From NCBI RefSeq assembly GCF_000150955.2, contig NC_011682.1, positions 1-64,000 on the forward strand: 64,000 nt of DNA, read 5' to 3'. The stretch comes from Phaeodactylum tricornutum CCAP 1055/1. Lineage: Eukaryota; Bacillariophyta; Bacillariophyceae; Surirellales; Neidiaceae. Numbering within the stretch: position 1 is the first letter of the stretch; each line of letters opens with the position of its first letter. Shown piece by piece: positions 1-64,000 of the stretch. Below the pieces are notes generated by a model that was not told where the DNA came from, made no database searches, and saw only the letters and a list, made by a program, of their open reading frames with translations. A program made the translations under genes and the position numbers.

Positions 1-234
1 CCTAACCCTAACCCTAACCCTAACCCTAACCCTAACCCTAACCCTAACCCTAACCCTAACCCTAACCCTAACCCTAACCCTAACCCTAACCCTAACCCTA
101 ACCCTAACCCTAACCCTAACCCTAACCCTAACCCTAACCCTAACCCTAACCCTAACCCTAACCCTAACCCTAACCCTAACCCTAACCCTAACCCTAACCC
201 TAACCCTAACCCTAACCCTAATCCTAACCCTAAC
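1..234. repeat. Telomere repeat array (CCCTAA)n
   Basis: About 39 head-to-tail copies of CCCTAA run from the first base to 234. One unit near 220 is altered (CCTAAT), as is common at the inner edge of an array. Read towards the chromosome end this is the C-rich strand of TTAGGG telomeric DNA, so the window begins at a chromosome left end. No other telomere-like tract was seen in the window. Confidence 0.98.
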
Positions 235-890
235 GAATAAGGATGATCGTCGAAGCGTTTCGGGAGCATTTTTTACGGTCGGTGGAACATTGACGAATTG
301 GATGTCGAAAACGCAAGCATTGGTTGCGTTGAGCAGTTGCGAAGCGGAGTATGTTGCTGTCGCACTAGCTACACAAGAGTTACTATTCATGCAGATGTTA
401 ATGACAGAGCTCGGAGAATGCGAATATCCAGGGATTATATTGGAAGATAATACCGGGGCAATATTTTTGGTCAAGAATCAACAAGTGGGTCAGAGAACAA
501 AGCACATTGATGTGCGTTACCATTTTATTCGCGAGCATTACGAGAATGGGGAGATTGACATCACCCATACGCGATCGGAGAACAACGAGGCAGATATTGG
601 AACCAAGAACACGACGGAGAATTTGCATCAGAAGCATGCGAGCAATATTCGGAATGGTACAATGTATGTTCGAGAAAATTGGAATGAGATGATGAAGGAA
701 ATTCATGTCCGAAGCCCGGAGGGAGGATGTCGTGAAATGACTGTCAGTCATGTGTCCGTACTTCGGACTGATAAAGGAACAAACGGACGAACGTCTAACT
801 GACGTTGGGTGGAAAATATATGTATTCATGTGATGAGAATTATCTGTTTAGGAAAGCAAGACTATGTGCGATGAAGCAAGCGAAGTTCAA
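235..890 (+). mobile_element. Ty1/copia LTR retrotransposon remnant (3' end)
   Basis: The coding part (about 290-802) matches the C-terminal RNase H region of copia-type polyproteins, with the SSCEAEY motif, a DNTGA motif and the TKHIDVRYHFIRE block. A purine-rich stretch near 713-728 followed by TG could be the polypurine tract and the start of the 3' LTR, but the LTR end is not defined. The element is a broken fossil fragment abutting the telomere array. Copia elements are the dominant LTR class in diatom genomes. Age cannot be judged because the two LTRs cannot be compared. Confidence 0.85.
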
Positions 891-928
891 ATATGATTAA
901 TTGGAACAAGAGCAAATGTTGGTTTTTA

Positions 929-942
929 GGGGGGGGGGGGGG
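929..942. repeat. Homopolymer G tract (G14)
   Basis: Fourteen consecutive G residues lie between the retrotransposon remnant and the dehydrogenase pseudogene. Recognisable dehydrogenase-like sequence begins shortly after it, so the tract marks a junction between two unrelated pieces of subtelomeric DNA. The exact length may be affected by sequencing slippage. Confidence 0.85.
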
Positions 943-1800
943 CTCGCAAGCCGCCGAAGTGATTTCGGACAACGAAGAACCCCACAAGCCGTTGTTCTTG
1001 GGCAAAGCTGCAAATGATCCAGGCATATTGCCAAGCCTGTTAGCCAGAAGAAGATATTGTAACGTTTACCAATCCTATTGCACGGAGACGCCGCCTTTGC
1101 CGGGCAAGGGGTAGTCTATGAGACCATGCAATTGGCCGAGGCGCCCGATTTTGATCCATTCACGTCATCATCAATAATCAGATTGGCTTCACCACCAACC
1201 CCCTACATTCGCGCTTGACGCCCTACTCGTTGGAGTTGGACAAGGCCTTCAATTGCCCCATCTTTCAGTGCAACGGCGACGATCCCCTAGCAGTATTGAC
1301 GGCACTCGAGACCGCCGTCAAATGACGTCACGAATGGGGCTTGATTGAAGAAGGAACCTTATCGAAAGAAGAATGTCGAGAGATCCGTGACAAATGTCGG
1401 AAAGCTACGAGAAGGACGTGGAAGCTTCCAAGAAGTATGTGGAAAAAGGGGACGGATTGGTTGACCTCCAGGTGGACCAGTTTCAAAGGGCTGTCGCAGA
1501 TTAGTCGTATTCGGCCTACCAGCAATGAGATGGACTTTGCGCAAGATAGGAATCCGAGCTGGAATGGTTCCAGCCAATTTTAAATTGTATTGTCAAATGG
1601 CCAAAATCTTTAAGGCATGTTGGGAAATGGCGAAAGTATCAAATGGGGCACTGCCGAAGCCTTGGCGCTTGGTTTGCTCCTACCAGAAGGGAATCATGTG
1701 CGTATTACTGGTAAATACGTTCAGTGCGATACCTTTAGTCACCGGTACGCCGTCGTCAAAAATCAGAATACAAATCCTCAAGGGCGGTCAGGAGCGCAAC
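943..1800 (+). pseudogene. 2-oxoglutarate dehydrogenase E1 fragment, decayed
   Basis: Pieces of the central thiamine-diphosphate domain of 2-oxoglutarate dehydrogenase E1 can be read in order but in different frames. They are [20 protein letters not shown] near 1075-1130, [15 protein letters not shown] and CPIFQCNGDDPLAV near 1170-1300, a stretch with FKGLSQISRIR near 1480-1515, VPANFKLYCQMAKIF near 1570-1610, and WGTAEALALGLLLPEGNHVR with TFSHR near 1640-1745. The segment expected after the NGDDP motif, which carries the conserved RRFGHNE block, is absent, and several frameshifts and stops occur, including TGA right after the ALETAVK stretch. The functional parent gene must lie elsewhere. 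This is a subtelomeric gene relic, not a working TCA-cycle gene. Confidence 0.8.
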
Positions 1801-3289
1801 AAACGTCACATTGCTGGGGACAATAATGTCCAAGGTTTCCAACACGTGCGTGTCAACGGAATAGTTGACAATTAACAAGCTGTCAAGCGTGTGGGTGGAG
1901 GCTCTCCAAACAAGGGCAGCGCCATTACAGCGTTTCGCCGTCCGAAAGCGTGTCGTGTGGGGCCCACTCTGGATGCAATCCACAATGGCAAAAGGTACCC
2001 TGTGGCGGCCTGGACCAAGCACCGCATTAAAGGGAGAAAGTGCGACGTAACATCCAAATGCCGACGGTCCAGAGTGACGGACATATGACGCACTTGCAAT
2101 GTACTTTGACAGCAAGTAATTTTCTATACTAGGTTGTCATCCAAGACGGCATGGCCAACAATTTCTAGCTTCATAGTAGTTGTGTTTCTGACTTATATTG
2201 GTAGGAAAATAAGGTATCGTTTGCATGGTCAATGCCGTCTCCGAGTCCTCACCATTGGAGGCAACTGACTGTGAATGTGAAGGGATGACCACGTGAAAAC
2301 AATCCTTGTCATCTAACATAGGATAAGGGGTTTTTCTTAACTAAAATTATTACTTAGAAAGTATTTCCCGCGAGAGTAAAGACACTTAGAAACAGTGTGA
2401 TTTTTCCCAAATAGCGAAAATTTCACCCTTGTTCATCCCAAATACCGAATTTTCTCATTGATTATCTAATAGACTTCGTGTCCCGCTTCCGTTGTAGACT
2501 GCCGTAGCCAAAATTGAGGTGAGGAATCAATATGTTGTCCGTTGAGTAAAACTATTATTCGTTTCGTTTTAATACGTTTATTGTCTTTTTATGAGTATAT
2601 AATAGCAATCTAAAAAGAAAATGAAACTATCATAAAAAAGTGTTGCTGAATGGTATTTGGGAAAGGGAACTTCCTTATGTTAGCAATCGAGTTGACAGCA
2701 TAACAGTTGAAAAGTAGTAAAATCAACTAGCAGCTTTGATTTTTTCTGAATGTTACATACAAGATTTGAAGAATACATGTGAGAATATTCACAGATCAAT
2801 GAGCAAGGGTAAAAGTGGATTCTGTTACATTAACAACAATCATGGGAAAGTTTGGAGCCAGATAAGATTTTAAGTGCTCCGTGCAGAAAACAGGCTCTTT
2901 ACTGACAGTGAACAATGTGATCAACACAAAAATGCAACTTACGAAAAAGTGTCAATTTGCAAGAACATGGACAACACAACTCTCAATTTAGTTTCTTGGT
3001 GTTGCCAAAGATCAAAGTAGTGAATGGAGAAATAACTTATTTTTGGGTCTATTGTCAAAGTGTCTTGTTTGATGCAAACCACTCCTGTAAGCACAAACTT
3101 GCTTCTACAGCTAGCTCAGCTAACTCATCAATTAAACGCAGGGCGGTTTTCTACTATGTAATCTATTGCTGACAGTCAATGTAGGTCACACAAAGTATTG
3201 TCGCAACAGGCTTCCTTTTAAAAGTTATGGAACGTTGCTATCAGCTGACCAGCCTTACAAGGCTGCAAAACACTGCTTTCCAACCATGT
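1801..3289. other. Intergenic, no supported gene
   Basis: A reverse-strand open frame at 1756-2115 (119 codons) has protein-like composition but matches nothing I recognise and could be another relic. One copy of TGACTGTGA lies at 2266-2274. From about 2330 the DNA is AT-rich and holds only short frames. The right edge is the 3' side of the ubiquitin-activating enzyme gene. Confidence 0.5.
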
Positions 3290-6200
3290 TCATCGGAAAC
3301 GAAAGCGCACATACGGCAGGTCAACTTCCTCGTCCGTGTCCTTATCATTTGCAATTATTTCCAAAATGATGAAGAGCTGGTTGGACGGAAACTCTTTTTT
3401 TGTAATGGATGTAATCACATCCGTCATTTTCATGCTTTTGCGCTCTTCCACCTTTTTCTTATTGGCAAAAAAGCTGTACAAGATGCTCACCCCATGGCTG
3501 AGCATGGAAATCTCCAAATTGTATTCATTTTCAAAATAATCCATAAATTCGCCCATAGTGATGTCGCCAAGACTCATATCCAACGAATCCCAAGGCGTCC
3601 ATTCCCATTCTTTGCCCTTGACAAGTGCCTTGGTCTTGGCAGGAGCTGTTGGTTCGGACAAGGTCATGAAGGGAATGGCTAGATTGATGAAGCCGTTTTT
3701 ATAGGCGTCAATTGACAGCTTCTTGCGAGCCGTACCTACCATTTTGTAAAGCTCTAGGCAAATTAGACCGGTGACCAAGGCGGTTGTCGTCGCAATCGCA
3801 GGAATAATACGTCCGGCAATTGCGCGCGAGCGATGTGTGTCTTCCGTTGGAATTTGATAATTCATGGCACGAAGATTAGAACACGCCGTGACAAAGAGCA
3901 TCTGTTCATCTAAATCCTTGTCAAAATCGATGCCCTGTAACCGAAATCCTGCAAGTTCAGAGGGCTTCGGCAGACTGCCCCAAAGTTCGTCCGCTTCCGC
4001 ATCGCCGGTATCCATCCCGTTCCCATCCGTCGCCTTGGCTTCCTCATCGTTAGCCGCAATCTTTACTCCCTCGGCTGGAGAAAAGTCAGGCACAATCACA
4101 TCCTTGAGCGTTTGCCGAAAGTAGTCTTCATCGGTGCGTCCCTTGATACCGTACAATTGGGCTCGCATGTTGGCGGCTGCCACAACAAAATCAAAGTGAT
4201 TGCGCATCCCTGCGTCTTCATCTACAGCGTCAATATCAAACACGAGCGGTTTCGGACAACGCTTACTCCCGGACCAAAATTTTGTGCCACTCGATGTGAC
4301 TTGATCTGGCGGAAAATTATACAGCAATTGCCGAATTTGGTTGTTGAAGAGATTTTCGAATGTCAGACGAGCCCAGGTGACACAGTCCTCGAATGTCAAA
4401 GGGCGTTCATCCACCAGCGTGCGACGCAACAACTTGAGTGACTCGGTTTTGGTATTGGGTTGCAATGTTTCCAAGTACTGAGATGGCGGCATGGAAAGGT
4501 AAGCATTGACCTCATCGGCCGATTGCTTGAACGCACCTTCAAACCAATCACGCGCCCACTGCAGCGTATGCTGAATCTGGTTCGGAAAGTTTTTAAGCGT
4601 GCAAACTGGGATGGATTTTTCTGGTGGATCACGGGTGGCGCCATAATGCTCCGTCAAATGTGGCACAACTACTTGTGTATTGCCCTTGGTACCAAGTGTG
4701 CCAGATTCCAGCATTGGTAAGCGATAGAACAAACAGCGCTGATCGACGTAAAGACGCGCTTCAACATTGTCCAAGGCCGTACAAACACCACTGAGCTTAT
4801 CGTAAAAGTCGTCACCGAACAGGTGCTCTGTGTCTTGCGCCACTTTTTCCTGGTACGCCGTAACGTTGAGCTTTGGATTCATGGCTTTCGCCGCGTCGGC
4901 AGCGGTGGCCGACTTGAATTTGTCAATATCGGTGTTGCGAAACAAGAATTGACGCGACAAGTTCGACTTTTCGATGCGATCCATGTCGGTCACGTATACG
5001 TGTCCCTTGGACGAACAGCCAACCCCCATGAGTGCCCAGTTTTTCAGCATTTCACAGCCGATTGCCCCAGCGCCGACCATGAAGTACTGCAAGTTGTTAA
5101 TATTTTCCTGCATGTCGCTCCCAAACACGGCAACTTGGCTATCATAGCGTGACGTGCCCGTTGGTTGGACCAAGGAGGAGTCGATCAACGTATCGGGCAG
5201 GGTTTCGTCAGCATCGAGGTAGAAGAAACCTGGAATAGGTGTAAACTTGCCACTGCAAGCCTTGAGAACTTCTTGGCCCACCATGCCTCCAAGTGCTGCG
5301 CACATGGGCGAAAGGCACGCCCGCGCACCAGATGCAAAATGCATCAAGAGACGCTCGGCAACCTGAAAGTTGGACTTGAGAATCCCTTCTTTATCGAGTG
5401 TATTGGCCAGCGCCAACACTTCTTTAGCTGTATTCACATCCCCTGGCATTGGCAATTCACCCTTTTCATCCAAATACGCCGCAACGGCTTGAAATGCTAG
5501 ATGCAGTAGAGGTGGGCGGTCAAACTTTGCAAAGTCCGACATCATGAGCTCCCCGGGCTTTTCCAGTTTTTCAGCGTACGATTCAAACTTCAGTGTAACC
5601 GGTTGCTTGATTTGTGTGATGTAACCTTGTTGGTTGACTGCGTGCCCGGCACCGTCCCCGTCGGCAATTCCACTGAGATCGACTTCCGGCAACTCAAAGG
5701 TAAATGGTCCGGTTGTCTTGATGGCGTACTCCCTGCCTTCTTCCAACCCAGGGACCCCGTGCAAACGGGCAAAGCTGACCTTGTCGCCGTCTTCCAAACC
5801 ATGACGACCGTGATCTTCCAAGACTTTGACGACAGCGGGATTCTCGTGGACAACAGATTCGATTTGAGACGTGGCGGCGGCTTCGCCATCCTTGTCGGCC
5901 ACCACAAAGGCGTCTCCAAAGTCGCAGAAGGCCATACCAAAAACACTCATGGTGAGTGAATAAATGAAGGACACTTTTTGTTCACGGCAGGCTTCGTTGA
6001 GCTGAATGACCAATGCCTTGGGCAGCGGGACCGTAACGACGACACAGGTAAGGCTTCCATCGATCAACGGAAGAACTGAGTCAACGGAGAGATCCGGAAC
6101 GTCCGCCGTCGTCACGCTGACGTATTGATTGAGTTGCGCCAAAGAGTCTTTGCACAGGGCGGCTCGTCCCTTCGTTCCGCCAATATCAGATTCTTGCAGG

Positions 6201-56471: not shown

Positions 56472-59052
56472 ATGAGAGTGATCGTTTTCTCGTTGCTTTT
56501 GCAACTTGTGTGCGCGTGGGACGCCAAGTCCATCGTCAAAGACAATGTAGCAACTAACGGAAATTCCGTCATCCACTCCGATGGCCCCCAGCACTTGTCC
56601 GTAGTCAAGCAGCCCGAAAGACCTAGTCGCCGGTTGCAAGCGGACATCTTGACCACACTGGAAGGGAAGGGATCTTCCAAGTCGAGCAGCGGAAAAGGGT
56701 CAAAGTCCGCCAAATCAACTCCCACTAAATCATCCAAATCGTCTAGTGGGAAAGGATCCGCATCCTCCAAATCGGCCGGATCCCTACCGGCGCCGACTCC
56801 TACAGCGAAGTCGGCAGTCACGCATACACCTAGCGCTGCTCCTACCCGCGGCTCAAGGGAAGAAACCGTCACCATTTCATACGTCATTGCCCTTACGAGT
56901 GGAACGGACTTCGACACAGTAGTAGCTGACCTGATCGAAGCCATGAACAGCTTGGCATTGAATACTGTCGCGGAAGCTGTTAATGCTGTCGGACGAAATC
57001 TGATGATTCAACTCATCCGCCGTGGTGGTCGCCGTCGTCTAGATGCCCGAGTAGTGTTGCCAACCATTATTGAATCTGCTGTTGTAGTTGGTACGTGTAG
57101 AGATCACGCGTCGAATATGGACAGTGAGAAACTGGTATGAGTAGGCATGAACCGTGCTGGTACTAACTGTAACAGTCATTTTTTGTTTTCGAAGAATGCC
57201 CACCAGGCAATCCCGCCGGCGCTACTTGCCTCCTTGTAACTCATGGTATTGTGTTGGAAGTAACCGGTGACACAGCGGACGTCAATTCCGCAGAAGTATT
57301 CAGAACTGAACTAGTGCAGGACGTTGCAGGAGGCCAACTTGATCAAGAATTGCAAGAGGTCAACCCCGAATCCCCGGTTCTGCAAATTACTGCCACAGAA
57401 ACCGCCCCTCCTGCTCCAGTTGTCACGGCTACTCCAGTGCCGCCACCAAGTGATGGATCGACTTTGGCTCCAGTCACCGCGCCAGTTGTTGCTCCTGTGT
57501 CGCCACCAATCGCAGGATCGACTTTGGCTCCAGTCTCGTCACCGAGTGCTGCTCCAGTGCCTCCACCAATTGCCGGATCAACTTCGGCTCCAGTCACCGC
57601 ACCAGTAATTGCTCCGGTCGCCACGCCAGTAATTGCTCCCGTCATTGCTCCAGTGGCGCCACCAATCGCTGGATCGACTTTGGCTCCAGTCCCGCCACCA
57701 AGTGCTACCCCTGTGCCGCCACCAATCGCCGGATCGACTTTGGCTCCAGTCACCGCACCAATGGTTGCCCCTGTCACCGCACCAGTGGTTGCCCCTGTCA
57801 CTGCACCAGTGGTTGCTCCTGTCACCGCACCAGTGGTTGCTCCTGTCACCGCACCAGTGGTTGCTCCTGTCACCGCACCAGTGGTTGCCCCTGTCACCGC
57901 ACCAGTGGTTGCCCCTGTCACCGCACCAGTGGTTGCCCCTGTCACCGCACCAGTGGTTGCTCCTGTCACTGCACCAGTGGTTGCTCCCGTTACTGCACCA
58001 AGCGCGGCTCCTAGCAGAGTGTGTATAAGCACAGAGGTGCAGCTAAGAGACCACATTGATAATAATATTGATGGCGTCTTGTGCGCCAACATCACCGTGT
58101 CGCTTTCGAGCACCGTTATCATTCCGCAAAACGCCGATTTTGATCTCAGCTGTGGTGGCAACACATGCCTAATCTTATCAGCATTGGAGATCCAGTTATT
58201 TCGGACCGAAGTAACTACCGCTTCTGGCAATGGTCACGATGTCAGCTTCACCGGTATCATATTCGAACAAGCCCTGACGACAGCGGTAAGAATTCTTGTT
58301 GTACCTAGTATGAGCCCTTATGAAAAAGTTCTTTCTCACCTCTTTACACTCTGGTAAACAACTACTGCCTTCTCAAAGGCTGGACCTTCCCCGAATGGAG
58401 CTGCTTTTGGTCTCGTTGGAGGTACTACAAGCTTTACAGACTGTAATTTTGGCTTCAACTTTGCGGTAAGAATTGATTTCCCGTGGATGATTCAGTTCCT
58501 ATCAAGTCTTCTTAAAATACAATTTTCTTTTCTCACCTAATAATCTCTTTTCATCCGTGCAAGCTATCGGACGAAGATCCTGCCGGTGATGCTCCAGGTG
58601 GAAATGGAGGAGCAATCGCGGTCAGCGCCAATGGCAGTGTGATCGTTACAAATTGTCTCTTTCTAGGAAACGGAAGCTTGGTACGTTCGGCGTCGTTTCA
58701 TCGTTGTACCATACATGGAAGTAAAGTATTGTCTCACTCTGGATTCTCCGTATCGTTTTTAATTTGTTTGCTGTTGCAGAGAGCGGGTGGAGCAATTGCG
58801 GCGTTCAACGTTGGATCCGACGCGAATCCCACCGTGACGATCACGAACTCTAGATTCGGTGGAAACGTGGCCAACGCTGCCAACGACATTGTAGCGGGCG
58901 ATCCGACGGACATGGGCAGTGCGGTGGTGACGTGCGATGCGGACACGATGTTCTGTGCCAGTGGTACCACGCTGGCTCGTTCCGGTGCCACCATTACCGG
59001 TTGCACTACCGTGAACGCCGACGCATTTTTCTGTTCCGATCCCGAGGCGTAA
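56472..59052 (+). CDS. Secreted protein with Ser/Lys region, APV-rich repeats and beta-helix-like C-terminus
   Basis: Five exons (56472-57090, 57195-58285, 58379-58465, 58564-58680, 58780-59052) with introns of 93-104 bp join in frame to 728 residues. A signal peptide (MRVIVFSLLLQLVCAWDA) leads. A Ser/Lys-rich stretch follows (GKGSKSAKSTPTKSSKSSSG), then a small domain (TISYVIALTSGTDFDTVVAD) and a long Pro/Val/Ala/Thr region ending in about ten copies of VTAPVVAP. The C-terminus has short GG-A-I/N-S-x-F turns (GGAIAAFNVGS; VTITNSRFGGNVA) like right-handed beta-helix polymorphic repeats. Low-complexity secreted proteins of this kind occur in diatom cell walls and adhesives. The stop TAA lies inside a perfect donor sequence (GTAAGT at 59049-59054), so a further exon is possible. 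Confidence 0.75.
57757..58006 (+). repeat. 24-bp coding minisatellite (about ten copies)
   Basis: Near-identical units of GCACCAGTGGTTGCCCCTGTCACC, differing mostly at two third-codon T/C positions, encode VTAPVVAP. Low divergence points to recent expansion or ongoing slippage. The antisense frame is also open through the array and is an artefact of its composition. Confidence 0.92.
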
Positions 59053-59917
59053 GTACGGTTATTTCCGTATCGGTAGGAAAATATGAGTAGGAGAACGTGC
59101 GTTTGTAGGCACTCCGGATGAGACAGTGAACAACGTGCTTTGTTTCCCTATCGTCGTTACACTATTATTTGTAACGCAACACATAACAAGTGATATTCCA
59201 TAGTACACCATCGATGCATCTCGGGTTTTTCTAGGGAGAAAACGAGTAGTTCGTCCTGAAGCTAGTAGTAGAGATAGGTTTCGCGTACGCTGAGGCTGGT
59301 AGAAATACGGCACGGATTTGATGGATTTGTAACTCGAATTGGATATTGACTGACTGTCTAAGAGTACCGGTGCGTGAGGAATATCTCAGTCAAGCAGCAC
59401 AGACGCCCAAGAAAGGAACTGGGGGACTCTACTTTCGATTACATTATGAAAAATAGCGTTTTATAAATATAGCGAGAATCCTACAATGTTCGACTCCTAC
59501 TACAGGTTTACAATTATCGAGCGCACTCTCGAGAGCGCAGTAGACGGAGGGGTGACCGTCACTACCGGAAATTGTTTTGGGCCCCCGTTGGTACGACCAA
59601 GACTCAAGAGAAGAACAGAAAACACAGTACGCAGCATACGCGACACTTTGTCGATGAACTGCAACTACAGGCTACCCTCGCAAGTTATCTCTAAAGGCAG
59701 CAATCCTGTGACACTTGCTCGGTTGTTCCCGTCTCTCAATCCAATCCGCACGGAAGGATCGATATCGGATTGGATTTCGGCAGATAAGACGACCGTACAG
59801 TGAGTGACGGGTCGACACTGTCCAGCCTTGTTGTTGTTTTCCATCCCACTCGTTCTCTAGCAGATTCACTCTTGGATCTACGCAAGCAACGGCTTATAAC
59901 CTAAATTACTACTCCAA
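59053..59917. other. Intergenic, upstream of fusion glycosylation gene
   Basis: No supported gene. It should hold the promoter of the gene at 59918 and possibly a further exon of the secreted protein gene. Confidence 0.5.
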
Positions 59918-62900
59918 ATGATTCGCAGTCGCACCGGTGCCAACGGCACTAACGGCGCGGTACCAGCCCGTACGAGTCCGACCCAATCCTCCTCCGCGTT
60001 GCTCGAATCTCCCTCCACCACAACGTCGTCAGTGACGTCCACCACTAACCTAAACAGTAACCACAACTCCGTTTCCGTCAGCCGATTCTCCCGTTGGCTT
60101 TTGGCACCATCCCGGGCGTCCCCGTCGCCGCCAACACTCTCACCTCCGGCGCGCGTGGCACGCAAATCACGTCTCCGACGGCGACCCCTGGCCTCGGCTT
60201 CCGCCGCCAAGGCGTCCACCTTGCGTCACCATCTCGGATGGGTTGCTCCCCTCGCTCTCGTATTACTCGCACTCTTTACGCTCGTGCTTTTTGTGAGTAT
60301 TTATTTACTCGAAACCACTGCCAATGCCGGCGTCTCTACGGCGGAGGGCTCCAATGTGGTATCCCCCCGTCGTGCCTTTTGGCAACAACACTTGCGACGG
60401 CCTGCACCTTCCGACACAGCCGTGGTACCAACTGATCACGCCATGCATCGACCTTCCGGTGCTACCATCGGAACAAAAATCAGTACCAAACCCGAAGACT
60501 GGATTGATATGCGCCAATTGGTTCGGACCTTGAGCTTTGACAATCCCGATGGAGGCGTCTGGAAACAGGGATGGAACGTCACGGCACGGGACGACTTTAC
60601 CAACGCTCAGCCGCTACAGGTATTCGTCGTCCCGCACTCCCACTGTGATCCGGGATGGATCAAGACCTTTGACGATTACTTCCAATCGCAGACTCGCCAA
60701 ATCCTTACCACCGTCGTCCAGGCTCTCCAACGAGACCAACGCCGCAAATTCATCTGGGCCGAAATTTCCTACTTTGAATGGTGGTACCGCGAACAAAAGG
60801 ACGACACTCGAAAAGTGGTCCAAACGCTCCTTGATAATAAGCAGCTGCAATTCGTCACGGGCGGATGGGTACAACCGGACGAGGCCAATTCGGAATTATA
60901 CGCTATGGAAATTCAACTGCAGGAAGGGCATGATTGGATTCGACAAACGTTCGGGGACGCCCATGTCCCCAAACACGGATGGTCCATTGATCCCTTTGGC
61001 TATTCCCCCACTATGGCCTACCTTTTGCAAAAATACGGATTCAAGGCCATGCTCATTCAACGGGTACACTACGCCGTCAAGAAGGAACTCGCGCAACGCC
61101 GTCACTTGGAATTTTATTGGCGGCAAACCTGGGAGGACGCCACCACGGCGGGCACTCACGATATTTTCACCCACGTCATGCCGTTCTTTTCCTACGACGT
61201 ACCGCATACGTGCGGACCAGATCCCTCGGTCTGCTGTCAATTTGACTTCCAACGCACTACGTGTCCGTGGCTCAAGGCGCCGCAAACCATCACCTCCAAA
61301 AACGTGGCCGAACGAGCAATGCTCTTGTTGGATCAGTATCGAAAAAAGGCGGCTCTCTACCGGTCCAACGTAGTCCTGGCACCACTGGGAGATGACTTTC
61401 GCTACCTGACGGCTCAGGAAGCCGAGGCCCAGTACACCAATTACCAAGCAATCTTTGATTACGTCAACGCCAACCTGCCGAATGTTAAAATGCAATTTGG
61501 AACTTTGTCGGACTATTTTGATGCCGTGGTGGGTTCGTTTGACACACCCATACTACAAGGATCCTTCTTTACCTACTCCGACATTGATCAAGACTACTGG
61601 TCGGGGTATTTTACTTCCCGTGTTTCCGACAAGGCCTTGGGTCGTTGGTTGGAACGCGTCTTGTACTCTGCAACGCAGATGGGTGCATCGAAACAAGACC
61701 TCCAGGCTCCCCGACGGGCCCTGTCCCTCTTTCAGCATCATGACGGCGTCACTGGGACCGCCAAAACTCATGTACACGAAGATTACGCCCGCCAAATGAT
61801 GGACGCCATTCATACCACCGAGGACTGGATGCTGCGTGCGATTCATCAACAGTACGGGACTGAACTGCAACCCCTGTTGACCGCGGATACTACGGCCGGC
61901 GCAATCCAACCGTGCTGGGTCGCGCCCGAACCACGGACCATGCCCGAAAATGCGTGTGAATCGGAGTACACTGTAGATTCCGCAGCGTCGTCGCCGCCAG
62001 CCCTTGTAGCGGTCTACAACCCGCTGTCGACATCGCAACACTGTGGTAACGTGGTTGTGCCCGGCCAAAAGCTACGAACTGCCACACTACCCTGTGAACT
62101 CCCTGGTCCCACGTCAGTGTCACAAACAAAGTTTGTCTTCCATCCCGAGACGGGGCTTATGCTAGAACCCGTCAAGGAGGAGTGGAAGGTATGGAAAGTC
62201 AAGAAGGGAGGAGCATACTTGTTCTTCCCTGGACAATTAAGGTCTTATGAGCTAACAAAACACGATGTGATTATAGAGGACGGTGGATACGTTGTGTCGA
62301 CTGAGTCCTGGAAGCGCACTGTGGTGGAACGCGAGATACCGACAGATTTTGGTATCAGCTCGACGGTGATCGATTTCGTTTACGAAACTACCTTGATTGA
62401 GGGTAATCGCGAATGGTTTGTGCGTTTTTCCGGTAATGTCGCGAACAACGGCATTTTCCACACGGACTTGAACGGCTTCAACTTCGATACCCATTATTTC
62501 CGAGCGGATATGCCCATTCAATCGCAAGTTTTTCCCATGCCGACCATGTCGGCCATACAAGACGACCAAACACGCTTGACTGTTTTGAGTGAACACGCGC
62601 AAGGTGCCGCTAGCTTGCAGGATGGCGCCATTGATGTTTGGTTGGATCGTCGATTAGATCAGGACGATGACCGAGGTCTAGGCCAGGGTATATCGGACAA
62701 TAGACCAACCCGGACGCGACTTCGAGTTGTGGTGGAACGAGAAACGTTCAATGTGCAGAAGGAGTTTGACGTCACGCCACTAGTACGCAGGACCTGGGAT
62801 GAGCTTCAACATCCTCTTGTACTTTTTGGAAAGCATGTTAAAAAGTCGATCGACCTTGTTGCCGATCCGTGGAAGCACCGATCCGATTCAGAAGCCCGAC

Positions 62901-64000
62901 AAGCACGAAGAGAAAGGCAACGTCAACAACGCGCGCGAGAGCGGCAACGGCAGCTGCAAGAAAAAGAAGAAAAGAGGGGCGCTGGTGACCAGCAACTATT
63001 CGTGAATGATAAACCAAAAGAGTCAGCTTTGAAGGGTTTTTGGAATACTGGAATCATTACGTCTGACTTTTTTGGCTTTTTCCGCAAAGCAAGTGAAACT
63101 CTTCCTAAAGATCAAGGTCATGAAGACGGCAAACAACTGCAAAAAATGCCAGGTAAAACGAGAGTTTCCAAAGGAAATCGACGCCATCGACATCCACCGG
63201 TCGATTCTTTTCAGCGCAAGTTCTTGGTCAACGACGCTGACTGGATGAATGGGGGGAGATCGTACGCATCGCGCAAAACCCGTGAAATCAAGAATCGTCG
63301 CTTTACAATGAAGAACACGGACATCCCGTTCGTATTGATGGTTTATAAGCGCGTGGATTATTTGAAAAAGGCGATTGATTCGGTCCGTCGATCCGACTTT
63401 CCAAAGTCTCGTGTGCCTCTTATCATTTCGCACGATGGACGAGTGCCGGAAGTCGTTGAGTATGTCGAATCGCTGAAAGACGAGTTCAAAATTATCCAAC
63501 TCATTCATCCGCATTCTTGCTACGAGCATCCCAACGAGTTTCCTGGGGATGATCCCACACTCAACGAAGGCTTTGCTGGAGATAGCTATGGTAATCCACG
63601 GAGTGCGTGGATCACCTGCTGCAAACATCATTTTACTTGGATGCTTCACACTGTCTTTCGTCGGGACTTTACGGACCCAGCAGTGGATACATTTTTGTTT
63701 CTCGAAGAAGATTACATCGTGGCTCCTACGATTTATTCCGCCGTTATTGCTGGGTTGAATGTTATGGAAGACATGGACAAGGAGATTCCGGGCGGCTTCT
63801 TCGGTTTGGGTATGGATCCGAGTATGGCGAATACTGCCTTTGAGCCTTACTACAAGAAGGCGACGTGGTATGTCGAAGCATTCAAGTCAGGTCCGATGAC
63901 GATGAACCGGGACATGTTCAAAAAGCTCCAACAACATGCTAAGGAGTACTGTACGTTCGACGATTACAATTGGGATTGGTCCATTGTCCATCTACAAAGT
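59918..64000 (+). CDS. Golgi alpha-mannosidase II - GlcNAc-transferase II fusion (cut at window end)
   Basis: One uninterrupted frame of 1,361 codons runs from the ATG at 59918 off the window end. A cytosolic tail rich in Ser/Arg is followed by a membrane anchor (WVAPLALVLLALFTLVLFVS, about residues 107-126). The GH38 domain follows. It has the zinc motif PHSHCDPGW (about 237-245), the nucleophile Asp358 in WSIDPFGYSPTM, and FQHHDGVTGT with the zinc-ligand His near 608. After a basic, Gln/Arg-rich linker (about 980-1120) comes a GT16 domain from residue 1136. It has IPFVLMVYKRVDYLKKAIDS, HPNEFPGDDP, FLFLEEDYIVAP (Asp1265) and YCTFDDYNWDW. Mannosidase II removes two mannoses from GlcNAcMan5GlcNAc2; GlcNAc-transferase II then adds GlcNAc to the exposed arm. 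Both functions normally sit on separate Golgi proteins. Confidence 0.92.
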   Translation, partial: MIRSRTGANGTNGAVPARTSPTQSSSALLESPSTTTSSVTSTTNLNSNHNSVSVSRFSRWLLAPSRASPSPPTLSPPARVARKSRLRRRPLASASAAKASTLRHHLGWVAPLALVLLALFTLVLFVSIYLLETTANAGVSTAEGSNVVSPRRAFWQQHLRRPAPSDTAVVPTDHAMHRPSGATIGTKISTKPEDWIDMRQLVRTLSFDNPDGGVWKQGWNVTARDDFTNAQPLQVFVVPHSHCDPGWIKTFDDYFQSQTRQILTTVVQALQRDQRRKFIWAEISYFEWWYREQKDDTRKVVQTLLDNKQLQFVTGGWVQPDEANSELYAMEIQLQEGHDWIRQTFGDAHVPKHGWSIDPFGYSPTMAYLLQKYGFKAMLIQRVHYAVKKELAQRRHLEFYWRQTWEDATTAGTHDIFTHVMPFFSYDVPHTCGPDPSVCCQFDFQRTTCPWLKAPQTITSKNVAERAMLLLDQYRKKAALYRSNVVLAPLGDDFRYLTAQEAEAQYTNYQAIFDYVNANLPNVKMQFGTLSDYFDAVVGSFDTPILQGSFFTYSDIDQDYWSGYFTSRVSDKALGRWLERVLYSATQMGASKQDLQAPRRALSLFQHHDGVTGTAKTHVHEDYARQMMDAIHTTEDWMLRAIHQQYGTELQPLLTADTTAGAIQPCWVAPEPRTMPENACESEYTVDSAASSPPALVAVYNPLSTSQHCGNVVVPGQKLRTATLPCELPGPTSVSQTKFVFHPETGLMLEPVKEEWKVWKVKKGGAYLFFPGQLRSYELTKHDVIIEDGGYVVSTESWKRTVVEREIPTDFGISSTVIDFVYETTLIEGNREWFVRFSGNVANNGIFHTDLNGFNFDTHYFRADMPIQSQVFPMPTMSAIQDDQTRLTVLSEHAQGAASLQDGAIDVWLDRRLDQDDDRGLGQGISDNRPTRTRLRVVVERETFNVQKEFDVTPLVRRTWDELQHPLVLFGKHVKKSIDLVADPWKHRSDSEARQARRERQRQQRARERQRQLQEKEEKRGAGDQQLFVNDKPKESALKGFWNTGIITSDFFGFFRKASETLPKDQGHEDGKQLQKMPGKTRVSKGNRRHRHPPVDSFQRKFLVNDADWMNGGRSYASRKTREIKNRRFTMKNTDIPFVLMVYKRVDYLKKAIDSVRRSDFPKSRVPLIISHDGRVPEVVEYVESLKDEFKIIQLIHPHSCYEHPNEFPGDDPTLNEGFAGDSYGNPRSAWITCCKHHFTWMLHTVFRRDFTDPAVDTFLFLEEDYIVAPTIYSAVIAGLNVMEDMDKEIPGGFFGLGMDPSMANTAFEPYYKKATWYVEAFKSGPMTMNRDMFKKLQQHAKEYCTFDDYNWDWSIVHLQS

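Follow-up and report, generated by a model that had tools for sequence, protein, structure and literature searches.

A single frame joins mannosidase II-like and GnT II-like halves

Near the end of the window, by which we mean the whole analyzed stretch of 64,000 nucleotides from Phaeodactylum tricornutum CCAP 1055/1 (contig NC_011682.1, positions 1 to 64,000), lies a long open reading frame whose predicted product joins a mannosidase II (Man II) of family GH38 to an N-acetylglucosaminyltransferase II (GnT II) of family GT16, also known as MGAT2. The frame begins with an ATG at 59918 and is still open at the window end, with 1361 amino acids (aa) inside the window; contig sequence reaching past the window (here L002, whose positions 1-5000 are identical to window positions 59001-64000) completes it at 1453 codons, followed by a stop that ends at contig position 64279. 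The closest in-frame stop upstream of the ATG is a TAA at 59897, with six codons between the two, and a check of the contig sequence from 59001 to 68000 found no N bases. The longest open frame in 20 random 64 kb sequences, drawn from a first-order Markov model with the nearest-neighbour composition of the window, had 259 codons (mean 215.1), so a frame of 1453 codons is not a product of chance. The features of the gene within the window are as follows, with residues compared, where stated, with Drosophila Golgi alpha-mannosidase II (GMII) or human MGAT2:

59918..64000, + strand, Man II/GnT II coding frame, residues 1-1361 of 1453; the remainder lies past the window, with the stop ending at contig 64279
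60227..60322, + strand, hydrophobic segment, residues 104-135 (Kyte-Doolittle, 19-residue windows)
60617..61576, + strand, GH38 N-terminal catalytic domain, residues 234-553 (Pfam, 7e-75)
60635..60658, + strand, HSHCDPGW, residues 240-247; H242 and D244 correspond to H90 and D92, two of the zinc ligands in Drosophila GMII
60989..60991, + strand, D358, aligned with nucleophile D204 of Drosophila GMII
61394..61396, + strand, D493, aligned with general acid/base D341 of Drosophila GMII
61595..61843, + strand, alpha-mannosidase middle domain, residues 560-642 (Pfam, 1.7e-17)
61739..61741, + strand, H608, aligned with zinc ligand H471 of Drosophila GMII
62174..62671, + strand, GH38 C-terminal domain, residues 753-918 (Pfam, 5.2e-12)
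62750..63283, + strand, linker, residues 945-1122, rich in Lys and Arg, without a hydrophobic anchor segment, coding in frame
63284..64000, + strand, GT16 (MGAT2) domain, residues 1123-1361 of a match spanning 1123-1447 (Pfam)
63704..63712, + strand, EED, residues 1263-1265 (E1263-E1264-D1265), the DxD-type motif of GnT II
63956..63979, + strand, FDDYNWDW, residues 1347-1354; D1353 aligns with D347 of human MGAT2

The original prediction, made by a model from the letters and their open reading frames, had described a single open frame linking a membrane anchor, a GH38 domain, a basic linker and a GT16 domain, and this architecture is borne out by Pfam, by hydropathy and by the completed frame of 1453 codons. 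The motifs it named (those for zinc and the nucleophile in GH38, together with EED and FDDYNWDW) are likewise present, and catalytic residues are kept in both halves.

All three GH38 Pfam domains score well above their cut-offs, and the best relatives of this half in the PDB are the chains of Drosophila Golgi mannosidase II (3.4e-169), which match far better than the jack bean enzyme (2.9e-64) and a lysosomal one (9.1e-37, for the matching chain). Residues were counted along the alignment to Drosophila GMII, with roles as assigned in the relevant passages of PMC13204073. Beyond the residues given above, W95, Y269, R343, D472 and Y727 of the Drosophila enzyme are identical, and so are P298 and W299 among the Golgi-specific anchor residues, with Y267 replaced by Phe. 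By alignment, the GH38 half is thus a Golgi-type and not a lysosomal-type mannosidase. A GH57 Pfam match of 19.6 bits in the same protein lies below its cut-off, and we attribute it to the overlap of related families.

The GT16 half matches the MGAT2 profile over residues 1123-1447 (8.6e-42, 143.9 bits vs. a cut-off of 27), covering profile positions 12-349 of 349, and the portion inside the window is significant on its own (2.3e-36). The expected GT16 match was therefore found, with a start at residue 1123 that lies slightly before the 1136 first proposed. Among PDB chains, human MGAT2 matches residues 1130-1448 (7.1e-24; domain alone, 1.6e-24). We take human MGAT2 numbering to be the chain position plus 28, an offset that puts D347 correctly. 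This residue, the counterpart of D1353, is placed to serve as catalytic base in the human enzyme (PMC7014118, section 2.2). We considered and rejected the possibility that this half is a GnT I: its GNT-I profile match scores 16 bits where 25.4 are required, a weak hit that we likewise attribute to the overlap of related families, and the genome has its own GnT I match on a different contig.

Anchor, linker and junction

Residues 104-135 form the sole segment above our hydropathy cut-off (Kyte-Doolittle 1.6, 19-residue windows) and are preceded at the N-terminus by a tail of some 103 residues; they are probably a type II signal anchor. Maxima under this cut-off are 0.71 in the linker and 1.27 in the GT16 part. 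Across its 178 residues, the linker holds 40 Lys or Arg, some of them in basic runs, and 24 Asp or Glu. When codon usage in the domains on either side of it, from this same gene, serves as the training set, the linker scores +22.3 in the frame of the fusion, with 0 stops; the remaining five frames contain 4 to 13 stops and score from -2.8 to -108.1. GC content at third codon positions (GC3) is lowest in the linker, at 0.35 for residues 1001-1100. With no N, no stop and a linker that codes in frame, we see no assembly fault at the junction, in keeping with the proposed continuity of the gene.

Overall GC content is 0.64 over the opening 100 codons of the fusion gene and about 0.43-0.48 over codons 1001-1400; it declines gradually, with no step at the domain junction.

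Earlier descriptions of the fusion

The original prediction knew of no description of such a fusion, which has been overtaken by the literature: PMC12507850 (Front Plant Sci, September 2025; section 3.2.2) describes a bifunctional Man II/GnT II of Phaeodactylum tricornutum with 1453 aa and proposes the same pathway role for it. The passages of that paper on the fusion also state that RNA-seq (Ovide et al. 2018) points to a single transcript, that other diatoms, Mayamaea pseudoterrestris among them, have homologous fusions, and that the motifs of both activities are conserved in these other diatoms. The Man II-GnT II fusion is real and already on record.

Parts of the protein had been noted before. 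Man II-like and GnT II-like sequences in P. tricornutum were mentioned in PMC4135232 (2014), and the Man II of this species appears in PMC7864949 (2021, Table 1) as protein 52248, with 1498 aa, one transmembrane segment and GH38 domains only; the same paper reports that Man II was not found in the centric diatom Thalassiosira oceanica. We infer that protein 52248 is the product of the fusion gene. Because a stop sits just upstream of the ATG, the additional 45 or so residues of a 1498-aa product would have to come from an exon further upstream.

Genome-wide complement of related enzymes

Profiles were also searched against the genome (27.45 Mb, 88 contigs) in six frames, exon by exon, with only the best candidates scored. 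The MGAT2 profile points to one place, the fusion gene (one candidate scored), and this search found no stand-alone GT16 gene on any contig; in this genome, GnT II was found only in fused form. The GH38 profile points to two places, the fusion gene and a locus on contig 11, whose first exon matches the jack bean (3.9e-70) and lysosomal (2.4e-67) enzymes ahead of the Golgi enzyme (2.7e-24). We therefore reject the contig 11 locus as a second Golgi mannosidase II, it being lysosomal-type as judged from the first exon. Since the fusion gene holds the sole MGAT2 match and the other GH38 locus is lysosomal-type, both the Man II and the GnT II steps appear, from these profile matches, to rest on the fusion gene. 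A single match to the GnT I profile, on contig 16, could supply the substrate.

Searches for GT16 relatives in collections of viral contigs (5 stretches matched the pattern, 0 confirmed) and prokaryote genomes (14 matched, 0 confirmed) were negative; these collections were not built to hold diatoms and therefore give no information on the spread of GT16 among eukaryotes. NCBIfam, whose models are bacterial and archaeal, found 0 families in the fusion protein, as expected.

Neighbouring frames

Ahead of the fusion gene, a frame at 57251-58357 (+) encodes a long VAPVTAP-type repeat with no Pfam match, and inside it a 24-base unit is repeated in 10.5 copies (57749-58000, 96% match). Just downstream of the fusion gene, L002:5866-6831 (+; contig C14) holds a frame of 321 aa, and L002:7136-8254 (-), on the strand opposite to the fusion gene, holds one of 372 aa, neither with a Pfam match at 0.01.

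Proposed function and alternative explanations

We consider it likely, given the domains and residues retained, that the gene specifies a single type II membrane protein of the Golgi whose two catalytic domains would act in turn, first as Man II and then as GnT II. The pathway order of GnT I, Man II and GnT II is established. The GH38 half would take two outer mannoses off GlcNAcMan5GlcNAc2 (where GlcNAc is N-acetylglucosamine), the product of GnT I, and the GT16 half would next add GlcNAc in beta1,2 linkage to the freed alpha1,6-mannose, providing the second GlcNAc. For the fusion itself, we infer the Golgi location, both activities and their order of action.

Several observations weigh against this account. 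In the GH38 half, N91 of the Drosophila enzyme is replaced by Cys (C243) in the zinc motif (HSHCDPGW vs. HSHNDPGW), the Golgi-specific anchor Y267 by Phe, and the His after the nucleophile motif by Tyr (window 60986-61006, IDPFGYS vs. IDPFGHS in Drosophila). The loop-helix-loop of the GT16 half aligns about 15 residues shorter than that of human MGAT2, in a stretch where HMMER confidence is low. We know of no enzyme assay for either half. Biochemical data on Man II/GnT II are missing according to PMC12507850, and the transcript evidence is second-hand, with "mannosidase" and "GnT" occurring 0 times in the main text of the RNA-seq paper (PMC6156597). As for the glycans themselves, the 69 N-glycans reported in PMC8678454 comprise 68 high-mannose structures and 1 hybrid (GlcNAc1Man4GlcNAc2), and according to PMC7773692 terminal GlcNAc was not seen in PNGase-released glycans.

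Other reports bear on these glycan data. The authors of PMC8678454 state that core-fucosylated or xylosylated glycans are missed by PNGase F, while PMC9826595 reports wild-type complex glycans with four GlcNAc, in conflict with both PMC8678454 and PMC7773692, and PMC12507850 offers the explanation that hexosaminidases remove terminal GlcNAc. In the passages cited, the published glycan data are mixed and hold no proof of GnT II activity of the fusion.

How the two halves might cooperate is suggested by animal enzymes, as GnT II resembles Drosophila Man II in how it binds the GlcNAc-Man-Man recognition arm (PMC7014118, section 2.2). One would therefore expect the two halves to compete for a single arm of the glycan, which would favour release followed by renewed binding, at a high local concentration, over a closed channel. 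Because Man II and GnT II recognize the same GlcNAc-Man arm in animal structures, tethering might go further and let one glycan be handed on, so that trimming and extension take place in a single visit; the short GT16 loop would then be an adaptation, either giving the transfer room or altering the acceptor. We regard this combined proposal as possible but rather doubtful. If it were true, little free GlcNAcMan3GlcNAc2 intermediate would be expected in diatoms.

Separate action of the halves is a different proposal, in which cleavage of the basic linker along the secretory pathway releases two enzymes from a fused precursor, leaving equal production as the sole effect of the fusion. The length of the linker (178 residues) and its 40 Lys or Arg, with their basic runs, speak for such cutting, but the linker carries no second hydrophobic anchor, which would leave a freed GT16 half without attachment to the membrane, and processing data were not found. 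We judge this course of events unlikely.

It is also quite improbable, in our view, that only one half is active, with the GT16 half having drifted in its short loop-helix-loop and lost or changed its acceptor. Two cysteines of this element are disulfide-bonded in human MGAT2. The element spans human residues 181-224 and sets GnT II apart from GnT I and POMGNT1 (PMC7014118); in the alignment, stretches of 11 and 4 residues of it are absent from the GT16 half and the two cysteines are not kept, although HMMER alignment confidence is low in exactly this stretch. The shortened loop is absent from the passages of PMC12507850 on the fusion, its supplementary alignment aside. Antennal GlcNAc on just 1 of 69 glycans, and that one a hybrid (PMC8678454), also fits the loss of one activity. 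However, the GT16 half retains EED and the catalytic Asp and covers profile positions 12-349 of 349, and according to PMC12507850 other diatoms conserve the motifs of the two activities.

Finally, we reject as extremely improbable an assembly or gene-model artefact in which two neighbouring, separate genes are read as one. In its favour, conservation is weakest in the linker, and GC3 is lowest there (0.35, residues 1001-1100). The frame is uninterrupted, however, with no gap, N or stop and with in-frame codon usage across the linker, and both the single transcript and the homologous fusions in further diatom genomes are on record in PMC12507850.

Our preferred account remains that of a Golgi protein with two consecutive activities. 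Natural fusions between consecutive enzymes of N-glycan processing are uncommon, and this one would be a clean system for testing the benefit of tethering in Golgi processing. For therapeutic proteins from P. tricornutum, altering or removing this one gene would probably hit two steps together.

Comparison with known systems

The closest known system is the P. tricornutum and diatom Man II/GnT II of PMC12507850, which is alike in its 1453 aa, its type II membrane topology, its N-terminal Man II and its C-terminal GnT II; no difference was found in a comparison with the published description. With Drosophila Golgi alpha-mannosidase II (PDB 1ps3, 1hty and others), the fusion has in common all compared catalytic residues as well as P298 and W299, but the Drosophila enzyme is a single-domain protein without GT16, and the fusion has Cys for N91 and Phe for Y267. 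Human MGAT2/GnT II (PDB 5vcm, 5vcr, 5vcs) shares EED and DDYNWDW with its base D347; unlike the GT16 half, however, it is a separate protein with its own anchor, and the loop-helix-loop of the fusion aligns about 15 residues shorter and without the two cysteines, at low alignment confidence. A further case, named in PMC12507850, is RmlC-RmlD of Prymnesium parvum, in which two consecutive pathway enzymes are likewise fused in an alga, but for nucleotide-sugar synthesis and from families unrelated to GH38 and GT16.

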